Below are positions 48,908-51,263 of a stretch of 64,000 nt of DNA, one piece after another. The notes beneath the pieces were generated by a model. That model was not told the DNA's origin, searched no databases, and was given only the letters and a program-made list of their open reading frames with translations. Position 1 is the stretch's first letter, and the number at the start of each line of letters is the position of its first letter. Origin of the DNA: Citromicrobium bathyomarinum (lineage in GTDB: Bacteria > Pseudomonadota > Alphaproteobacteria > Sphingomonadales > Sphingomonadaceae). Position numbers and translations under genes: made by a program. The stretch spans positions 1,488,001 through 1,552,000 of the forward strand of contig NZ_JAINWL010000001.1 of the NCBI RefSeq assembly GCF_021021475.1. Reading direction: 5' to 3'.

Positions 48908-48969
48908 GCACGTTCAAAGTCGCCGACTTCATGGCGATATGACGGACAAGGCTGTGGAAATTAGCGGTA

Positions 48970-48998
48970 CTGTAACCGTTCTGTGAGTCGCCTGTAAC
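48970..48998 (+). promoter_or_regulatory. PHO-box-like triple repeat upstream of plcP-agt
   Basis: CTGTAAC (48970-48976), CTGTGAG (48981-48987) and CTGTAAC (48992-48998) are separated by four bases each, giving an exact 11-bp period. This is the spacing and 5' sequence (CTGT) of alphaproteobacterial PhoB boxes (CTGTCAT n4 CTGTCAT). An AATATACC motif 20-odd bases downstream could be the -10. The site is 110 bases ahead of the phosphoesterase ATG. Confidence 0.65.
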
Positions 48999-49108
48999 AA
49001 TAGCGGTCTACCCCACGCCCAATATACCGCACGGAATACGAGATATTCTTTGCGGGCTTTTGGACGACGAACCTCCCTTCAGAGGGACAACAGGGGCCGC
49101 CCACCGCC

Positions 49109-50044
49109 ATGTTCGACCAGACCACGCCCGACGGCTTGCCCAAAGAATTCGCCGCCTTCGCGGGCGGCGCAGGCAACGTCTCCGCCTTTCCCTCGATCGA
49201 GCCATCGGTGCCCGAGCCCCAAGACGGCAAGCGCCGCCGTTTCCGCACAATCTGGATCAGCGACGTGCATCTGGGCACCAAGGGCTGCAATGCGGAGATG
49301 CTGATCGATTTCCTCGACAGCACCGATTCCGAAACAATGTATCTGGTCGGCGATATCATCGACGGCTGGCGGCTGAAGAAGAAGTTCTACTGGCCCGCCG
49401 CGCATAACGACATCGTCTGGCGGATCCTCAAGCGGTCCAAGCGCGGCACGCGGATCGTCTATATTCCGGGCAACCACGACGAGGTCGTGCGGCCGTTTTG
49501 CGGGATGAACTTCGGCGATGTCGAAATCCGCCGCGCCGCGTTCCACACCACCGCCGACGGGCGCCGGCTGATGGTTCTGCATGGCGACGAATTCGATACC
49601 GTGATGCTCACCCACAGGTGGCTCGCATTCGTGGGCGATACCGCCTACCATCTGATGATGGCGCTGAATCAATGGGTCAACAAGGCCCGCACGGCGCTGG
49701 GGATGCCCTACTGGTCGCTGTCGAAGGCGGCCAAGCACAAGGTGAAGAATGCGGTCGAGTTCATCTCGAAATACGAGGAAATCGTGGCCCGCGCCGCCGG
49801 AGAGCGCGGGGTCGACGGGGTCGTGTGCGGCCATATCCACACCGCAGAGCACCGCATGTTCGCCCATCACGGGCGCGAGATCGAATACTGGAACGACGGC
49901 GACTGGGTCGAAGGGTGCAATGCGCTGGTCGAGCATTTCGACGGGCGGATGGAAATCCTCCACTGGCCGGACGAGATCGCGAAACGCGAAATCGCGCCAC
50001 CCGCGCATGACGGTGCGGCGGACGACGTGCGGGCGGTCGCCTGA
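49109..50044 (+). CDS. plcP: PlcP-like metallophosphoesterase (phospholipid-remodelling type)
   Basis: A 311-residue calcineurin-like enzyme. Metal ligands are visible: S-D-V-H-L-G at about 51-56, V-G-D-I-I-D-G-W at about 80-87, P-G-N-H-D-E at about 120-125, H-G-D-E-F-D, and G-H-I-H near 233-236. It is usually annotated UDP-2,3-diacylglucosamine pyrophosphatase. However, the W-R-L-K-K-K-F-Y-W-P segment, the G-M-P-Y-W-S-L-S-K-A-A-K stretch and the adjoining glycosyltransferase match PlcP, which cleaves phospholipid headgroups in phosphate-starved Sinorhizobium and marine bacteria. A roughly 45-residue N-terminal extension precedes the domain. The stop overlaps the next start (ATGA with a shared base). 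Confidence 0.8.
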   Translation: MFDQTTPDGLPKEFAAFAGGAGNVSAFPSIEPSVPEPQDGKRRRFRTIWISDVHLGTKGCNAEMLIDFLDSTDSETMYLVGDIIDGWRLKKKFYWPAAHNDIVWRILKRSKRGTRIVYIPGNHDEVVRPFCGMNFGDVEIRRAAFHTTADGRRLMVLHGDEFDTVMLTHRWLAFVGDTAYHLMMALNQWVNKARTALGMPYWSLSKAAKHKVKNAVEFISKYEEIVARAAGERGVDGVVCGHIHTAEHRMFAHHGREIEYWNDGDWVEGCNALVEHFDGRMEILHWPDEIAKREIAPPAHDGAADDVRAVA

Positions 50045-51117
50045 TGCTGCTGGTCGAACCGGGGGGCTTGGCTGAGTTGGCCGAACTGCCGCCCAAGTCG
50101 ATCGCGATCGTCACCGACGCGTGGTATCCGCAGATGAACGGCGTGGTCCGCACGCTGACCACCACCTGCGACATCCTGCGCGCGCACGGGCACCAGGTGG
50201 ATATGATCACGCCCGATCAGTATCCCTCGCTGCCCTGCCCGACCTATCCCGAAATCCGCCTTGCGCTGACCCTGCCCGGCACCGTGGGCCGGCGGCTGTC
50301 GGACCTGCACCCCGATGCGGTGCATATCGCCACCGAAGGCCCGCTGGGGCTGGCCGCGCGGCGATATTGCATGGCCAAGGCGGTGCCGTTCACCACCGCC
50401 TATCACACGCAGTTTCCCGACTATATCGCGCGGCGCACCTCGCTGCCCTCGGATGCGTTCTGGCCCTATATCCGCTGGTTCCACCGCCCCGCGCAGCGGG
50501 TGATGGTGGCGACCGAGAGCATCCGCGAGGAACTGCGCGCGCAGGGCCTCACCCGGCTGCATCACTGGGGCCGCGGGGTCGATCTGGAGGCCTTCCATCC
50601 CGATGTCGGCCCCTGCGAGGATTACGAGGGGCTGGTCCGCCCGATCCAGCTGTATGTCGGCCGGGTCGCGGTCGAGAAGAACATCGAGGCGTTCCTGCGC
50701 ACCACAAGGCCGGGCACCAAGGTGGTGGTCGGCGACGGGCCGGCCCGCGCCGATCTGGAGGCCCGCTATCCCGAGGCGGTGTTCCTTGGCAAACGCAGCG
50801 GAGACGCGCTCGCCCGCTGCTATGCCAATGCCGACGTGTTCGTGTTCCCCAGCAAGACCGATACCTTCGGGCTGGTCATGATCGAGGCACTGGCCTGCGG
50901 CACGCCGGTTGCCGCCTTCCCCGTGCCGGGCCCGCGCGACGTGCTGAGCGAGGAAGCGGGCGCGATGCGCGACGATCTCGACGATGCGATCGCCAATGCG
51001 CTGCTGCGCGACCGGCAGACCTGCGCCCAGTACGGCGCGCAGTTCAGCTGGGAAAAGGCGACCCTGCAGTTCGTCGCCGGGCTGGAAGAGTTCGATGGAG
51101 AAACCCTCACTCCCTGA
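50044..51117 (+). CDS. agt: GT4-family glycosyltransferase (Agt-like glycolipid synthase)
   Basis: A 357-residue GT-B enzyme. The N-terminal part begins I-A-I-V-T-D-A-W-Y-P-Q-M-N-G-V-V-R-T-L, and the C-terminal half has L-Y-V-G-R-V-A-V-E-K-N and the nucleotide-sugar E-x7-E site in F-P-S-K-T-D-T-F-G-L-V-M-I-E-A-L-A-C-G. It belongs with mannosyl or glucosyl/glucuronosyl diacylglycerol synthases of GT4. Start overlap with plcP and a PHO-box-like site upstream suggest that it glycosylates diacylglycerol released by PlcP. The exact sugar cannot be read from sequence. Confidence 0.75.
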   Translation: MLLVEPGGLAELAELPPKSIAIVTDAWYPQMNGVVRTLTTTCDILRAHGHQVDMITPDQYPSLPCPTYPEIRLALTLPGTVGRRLSDLHPDAVHIATEGPLGLAARRYCMAKAVPFTTAYHTQFPDYIARRTSLPSDAFWPYIRWFHRPAQRVMVATESIREELRAQGLTRLHHWGRGVDLEAFHPDVGPCEDYEGLVRPIQLYVGRVAVEKNIEAFLRTTRPGTKVVVGDGPARADLEARYPEAVFLGKRSGDALARCYANADVFVFPSKTDTFGLVMIEALACGTPVAAFPVPGPRDVLSEEAGAMRDDLDDAIANALLRDRQTCAQYGAQFSWEKATLQFVAGLEEFDGETLTP

Positions 51118-51263
51118 GCGAGTCCCTGAAATGCCGATCTTCCTTGCCCAAAGGCGGCGCGATCCTTACAATGGCGCTTACGAGGCCGCTCCTGCATGGG
51201 GCGGCCCTTTCATTTTCAGGGCTCCGCCAACCGATCGGGGCCGAGCAGTTCAGGATGACCGTC

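Follow-up and report, generated by a model that had tools for sequence, protein, structure and literature searches.

Gene order and conservation of the locus

The window, by which we mean the whole 64-kb stretch of Citromicrobium bathyomarinum DNA that was analysed (bases 1488001-1552000 of contig C1, in a genome of 3.20 Mb with a completeness rating of 100%), contains a three-unit repeat followed by a plcP-like metallophosphoesterase gene and an agt-like gene of the GT4 glycosyltransferase family, which together form a candidate operon for membrane lipid remodelling (Table 1). Direct reading located the units of the repeat at 48970-48976 (CTGTAAC), 48981-48987 (CTGTGAG) and 48992-48998 (CTGTAAC), at steps of 11 and 11 base pairs (bp), exactly as an earlier note on this DNA had described, and it also bore out the proposed overlap of the two open reading frames (ORFs), which share the single base 50044 (TGATG).

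Table 1. Features of the candidate plcP-agt operon (positions in the window)
Feature	Position	Strand	Basis
Probable Pho box (PhoB site): three CTGT-type heptamers, repeated every 11 bp	48970..48998	+	Direct reading, genome and shuffle counts, footprint in relatives
plcP-like gene (311 residues), metallophosphoesterase, probable phosphate-starvation phospholipase C	49109..50044	+	Homology, GNHD motif
agt-like gene (357 residues), GT4, probable diacylglycerol glucosyl/glucuronosyltransferase	50044..51117	+	49.5% identity to Pseudomonas Agt1, motifs
Terminator-like stem-loop of 9 pairs with a T-rich tail, where the two-gene operon possibly ends	51184..51206	+	Weak alone

The stem-loop, together with an ATG at 51255 at which the following frame of that strand may begin, indicates that the transcription unit probably comprises two genes; by itself the stem-loop is weak, since three terminator-like sites were found in the region and 1.4 were expected from shuffles. 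The gene pair is conserved: among the relatives of the phosphoesterase locus (the best 80 of 233 loci from named records), a relative of the transferase lies immediately 3' of the phosphoesterase in 80/80. The nearest named relative found is Alteriqipengyuania abyssalis, with 99% identity in the phosphoesterase, which marks the organism as of the Erythrobacteraceae type within the Sphingomonadales. At class level, a search with the transferase gave a match at E ≤ 1e-25 in 108 of 241 genomes, and the transferase stands beside a phosphoesterase in 25 of 29 class-level loci, with no such neighbour in the remaining four. One of the three other genomes of the same family in this search (G146) gave a best transferase match of 30% and no Agt orthologue, so some members of the family may lack the plcP-agt operon.

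Assignment of the two enzymes

The phosphoesterase matches the Pfam Metallophos model and shares 48.4% identity over 250 residues with Sinorhizobium PlcP and 48.8% over 258 residues with the protein of a Pseudomonas locus that we take to be PA3219-PA3218, judging from its neighbours azoR3 and cyaB. The motifs SDVHL, GDIID, GNHD, HGD and GHIH, typical of metallophosphoesterases, are present in the window protein and in both references, and they recur among the relatives (SDVHL in 79/80, each of the others in 80/80). In the Sinorhizobium record (strain Ak57) a single place was matched at E ≤ 1e-20, beside a gene for a LuxR-type regulator; we presume that these are SMc00171, the studied PlcP, and sinR. 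Two database labels deserve a remark: the Sinorhizobium record CP090106.1, which holds plcP, is named pSymB, a designation that looks wrong because the replicon measures 3.7 Mb and plcP is chromosomal in the studied Sinorhizobium strains, and the P. aeruginosa plasmid record NZ_CP042268.1, our source for this locus, carries a chromosome-like stretch around PA3219-PA3218 with plcP-agt1.

The usual annotation would instead make this protein LpxH, the calcineurin-like phosphoesterase that cleaves UDP-2,3-diacylglucosamine for lipid A, and, as the earlier note had suspected, the name hides the probable function: 24 of 30 homologues in a plasmid collection are recorded as 'UDP-2,3-diacylglucosamine diphosphatase', the other six records having no feature at that place. 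Weak resemblance does exist, both to the LpxH models and, at E 2.9e-05, to an LpxH of solved structure. However, the protein scores far below both model cut-offs (47.4 bits vs 134, and 37.8 vs 190.35), as known PlcPs do (38.1 and 38.9 for Sinorhizobium, 55.1 and 44.5 for Pseudomonas), and it reads GNHD where both solved LpxH matches (2/2) read GNRD, a residue difference that we take to be diagnostic; GNHD is found in 80/80 relatives and GNRD in none. Its gene partner, moreover, encodes an Agt-type transferase.

The lipid A pathway provides a further argument. LpxI, LpxC and LpxB gave no match in the genome at E ≤ 0.001 (LpxA, LpxD and LpxK were not searched), in searches whose positive controls did find matches in known genomes, that of Caulobacter in every case, and a search with the phosphoesterase's own sequence found no second copy in the genome; an LpxH role is therefore implausible. 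The earlier note had treated the lack of a separate lpxH or lpxI as a point against its reading. Neither was found, and this does not refute the PlcP assignment, because LpxC and LpxB are unmatched too, so that nothing indicates a lipid A substrate. The missing matches point to a cell apparently without lipid A, and the bacterium, like its order, is probably covered by phosphorus-free glycosphingolipids; in Sphingomonadaceae, glycosphingolipids are described as replacing lipopolysaccharide (LPS) (PMC6445935; this and the other articles cited are drawn on in excerpt). We thus rejected LpxH, which we regard as extremely improbable on the scores, the GNHD motif, the missing LpxC, LpxB and LpxI matches and the Agt-type partner, and assign the phosphoesterase to the PlcP type, a probable phospholipase C of phosphate starvation.

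The partner shares 49.5% of its residues with Pseudomonas Agt1 and 32.5-35.9% with Agt2, the gene of which we presumably identified correctly from its neighbour plcR. It contains HTQFP at residue 121, GRVAVEKN at residue 206 and FPSKTDTFG at residue 268, motifs that recur in its 80 relatives (HTxFP in 79, FPSxTDTFG in 78 and GRVAxEKN in 67). For Pelagibacter GTcp, the motifs GRVAXEKN and FPSXTDTFG and a His-Asp dyad, with Asp in place of the usual Glu, have been described (PMC8231724), and the window transferase carries this complete set. Among solved structures, the search returned nothing near it besides general GT4 matches.

In a tree of 45 rows (a quick search with midpoint root, in which support was given by the Shimodaira-Hasegawa-like approximate likelihood ratio test (SH-aLRT) only, without bootstrap), a split with 100% SH-aLRT support separates a 34-row side, with the window transferase and Agt1, from an 11-row side with Agt2, likewise a characterised Agt, and two further GT4 transferases of the same genome. 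The split coincides with the catalytic signature: FPSxTDTFG occurs in 33/34 rows on the Agt1 side and 0/11 on the other, and ETFG in 0/34 and 10/11, respectively, the exception on the 11-row side being one of the two paralogues, whose TEAFG likewise retains Glu; Agt1 itself reads TDTYG and GRLATEKN. These paralogues (C7:271945-272733 and C6:597173-597988, the latter with TEAFG) both have Glu in the catalytic motif. The C7 paralogue is 29% identical to the window transferase and has counterparts at 55-61% in 3/3 same-family genomes examined, including G146. Because they lie on the opposite side of the tree and have Glu, and because the C7 protein has these counterparts, the two paralogues seem to be better candidates for glycosphingolipid synthesis.

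This bears on the possibility that the window transferase is a ceramide glucuronosyltransferase of the Sgt1/Zymomonas type, serving glycosphingolipid synthesis and not acting on diacylglycerol. The use of glycosphingolipids by Sphingomonadaceae instead of LPS would suit such an enzyme, and so would the reported membership of Caulobacter Sgt1 and Sgt2 in the PhoB regulon of that organism (PMC6445935). Yet the identity to Agt1, which is an MGDG (monoglycosyldiacylglycerol) synthase, and the Asp signature argue for a diacylglycerol acceptor; the genome holds the two Glu-type paralogues of the 11-row side, one of which has its counterparts even in a genome without an Agt orthologue; and a Novosphingobium study (2026) describes an Agrobacterium-like transferase cluster apart from the Sgt1/ceramide cluster (PMC13318209). 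On the Agt1 similarity, the Asp signature and the tree position, in a comparison whose references were Agt1, Agt2 and the two paralogues, we judge a glycosphingolipid transferase very unlikely. The earlier proposal of an Agt-type partner, as opposed to some other GT4 enzyme, is thus sustained, and the protein is a probable diacylglycerol glucosyl/glucuronosyltransferase.

Promoter repeat and proposed phosphate control

The triple CTGTNA-N5-CTGTNA-N5-CTGTNA has one match in the window and none in 100 dinucleotide shuffles, and one match in the whole genome (3,204,272 bases), where the reversed control pattern has none. The pattern was designed after the site had been seen, so these counts alone overstate the case and conservation in relatives weighs more; independent support for the heptamers comes from that conservation, from the pstS promoters and from a Pseudomonas promoter. 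Shorter patterns were of little use. Genome-wide, the two-unit CTGTNA form has two matches, both at the plcP site, and its reversed control three, which makes strict pairs useless as a regulon finder, and a looser pair matched the plcP site and one other place in the window, which is uninformative because 0.87 matches are expected by chance. The units CTGTAAC and CTGTGAG are of the CTGTCAT type, at 11 bp, and not exact CTGTCAT.

A matrix seeded from the window site and fitted to the same 80 upstream sequences that it was then used to score, from genomes that are close kin, has the printed consensus CCGTCACTGAACTGTGAATCGCCTGTAAC and gives best sites above 8 bits in 77/80 (median 32.4), with maxima of 9.9 in base shuffles and -6.6 in coding stretches; reversed upstreams score -5.4 at the median and 17.4 at most. 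Without a matrix, pairs of TGTVR lie 11 bp apart in 38/80 upstreams, 22 bp apart in 22 and 13 and 33 bp apart in 15 each, and in coding controls no lag is found at four loci or more. The outer units, written as GT[CA]A[CT] 22 bp apart (a pattern chosen once the footprint had been seen), occur in 62/80 upstreams, in 6/80 reversed and 1 reverse-complemented sequences, and no more than 2 occur in any of 100 shuffled sets. When a -10 element was sought at plcP, nothing emerged but A-[AT]-T directly 3' of the final unit and an A in twelfth position (74/79).

The genome has one PhoB gene above the curated cut-off (340.8 bits vs 296.2), surrounded by frames that, judged by eye, resemble phoR, pstC, pstA, pstB and phoU (C8:210000-217000); no CTGT-like pair was found in the 20-kb stretch that holds this cluster. 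pstS lies far from it, at C1:1041231-1042067. A search for PstS, made in 36 of the 80 genomes, succeeded in 36/36, and we compared 31 pstS upstreams (the own locus and 30 loci from relatives). An 11-bp repeat of the GTCA type, GTCAN-N6-GTC[AG], is present in 28/31, in at most 2/31 in 200 shuffled sets and in none of the reversed or reverse-complemented sequences. A third unit, GT[AC]A[CT], stands at the next 11-bp step in 13/31, several of which read TGTAAC or TGTAAT as at plcP. In Pseudomonas, the region upstream of plcP-agt1 reads CTGTCAC-N4-CGGTCGC-N4-CTGTCAC, again three units at 11 bp, and this operon is reported to have a Pho box there and a PlcP that increases 4.6-fold when phosphate is lost (PMC8528852).

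We consider it very likely, from the sequence comparisons as a whole, that the locus is a PlcP-Agt operon of two genes which belongs to the Pho regulon and remodels phospholipids to glycolipids under phosphate scarcity, as the earlier note had proposed; the tests agree with this interpretation, one of them, the pstS-derived matrix, weakly. Several observations weigh against it, in addition to the fitting of the footprint matrix to its own close-kin sequences. At the promoter, the strict triple [CT]TGTN[AG] is retained in just 5/80 relatives and the pair at 11 bp in 27/80. The own pstS site, GTCATATGAGTGTCAC, differs from the CTGTNA form at plcP, and the plcP-style outer units occur in just 3/31 pstS upstreams. 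The matrix derived from pstS has a median of 6.5 bits on plcP upstreams vs -1.9 on shuffles and 2.5 (95th percentile 11.7) on reversed upstreams, and it places 19/80 plcP upstreams above the 99th percentile of shuffles, with several top matches off the footprint. As for the transferase, GRVAxEKN is present in 21/34 rows on the Agt1 side (0/11 on the other) and so is not universal, no NCBIfam model scores above its cut-off (best 82.7 of 480 bits, as for Agt1 with 60.4 of 480), and the sugar (glucose, glucuronic acid or both) is not distinguishable from sequence.

The mismatch with pstS raises the question of whether the heptamers of this PlcP-Agt pair are read by another regulator of the OmpR family (one that serves envelope stress, say), either in place of PhoB or alongside it. 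The genome has seven matches to the PhoB model over at least 181 of its 226 positions, only one of them above the cut-off, and the plcP units TGTGAG and TGTAAC are unlike the pstS units GTCAY, in keeping with the poor fit of the pstS matrix. Nevertheless, the 11-bp period is common to plcP and pstS, the third unit of 13/31 pstS upstreams includes several with TGTAAC or TGTAAT, and the Pseudomonas PlcP-Agt1 operon, reported as responsive to phosphate loss, has the same three-unit layout (PMC8528852), so that we hold another regulator to be distinctly unlikely. The earlier claim of PhoB control is favoured by the PhoB gene, the repeat akin to that of pstS and the Pseudomonas-like layout; the comparison with pstS is mixed, the pstS matrix fitting the plcP site poorly.

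Proposed function and comparison with known systems

We infer PhoB binding, induction, enzyme activities and lipid products as follows. When phosphate is scarce, PhoR would phosphorylate PhoB, which would bind the heptamers and start transcription. PlcP would then cleave the phosphate-bearing head group from membrane phospholipids, saving phosphate and leaving diacylglycerol, to which Agt would add glucose and/or glucuronic acid from UDP-sugars, and the resulting phosphorus-free glycolipids would replace the lost phospholipids. A bolder proposal, which we think rather doubtful, is that, in a bacterium in which lipid A genes seem to be missing, the operon would let a starved cell build nearly its whole envelope free of phosphorus, the inner membrane as well as the two leaflets of the outer one, with the transferase perhaps also using ceramide.

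The findings correct a common annotation, as in these bacteria a 'UDP-2,3-diacylglucosamine diphosphatase' adjoining a GT4 gene most likely serves lipid remodelling, and they extend an already described way of saving phosphorus to a family with marine and soil members, in which the conserved promoter footprint could aid the mapping of the Pho regulon.

Among the known systems, the PlcP of Sinorhizobium meliloti shares its metallophosphoesterase motifs and nearly half of its residues with the window protein, but differs in its surroundings, no transferase being present among the five features listed within 3 kb in a record whose gene table is incomplete. LpxH resembles it weakly and differs by the GNRD motif and by model scores that the window protein fails to reach. 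The Pelagibacter GTcp/Agt is likened to the window transferase by its described motifs (GRVAXEKN, FPSXTDTFG and the His-Asp dyad; PMC8231724), and the Agt of Agrobacterium (Semeniuk 2014, via PMC3972451), also compared by description, is grouped with it by likeness to the GTcp motifs.

Also compared by sequence is PA3219-PA3218 (PlcP-Agt1) of Pseudomonas aeruginosa, which has a like gene order, identities of 48.8% and 49.5% for the two proteins and a three-unit 11-bp repeat; it differs in having a separate Agt2 for glucuronic acid diacylglycerol (GADG). The papers listed by the literature searches, outside which subscription papers mostly lay, yielded no further account of a plcP-agt operon in the family beyond that for Erythrobacter sp. 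NAP1. The system is not new, because plcP-agt and the expected lipids have been published for this related marine alphaproteobacterium (Sebastian et al., PMC4796936); the present analysis adds the family-wide promoter footprint, the comparison with pstS and the observation that the genome apparently lacks lipid A genes. In NAP1, likened here by its published description, agt lies downstream of plcP, in the order seen in the window, and phosphate starvation raises MGDG, GADG and diacylglyceryl trimethylhomoserine (DGTS); for plcP clusters in general, the same paper describes putative Pho boxes (PMC4796936).

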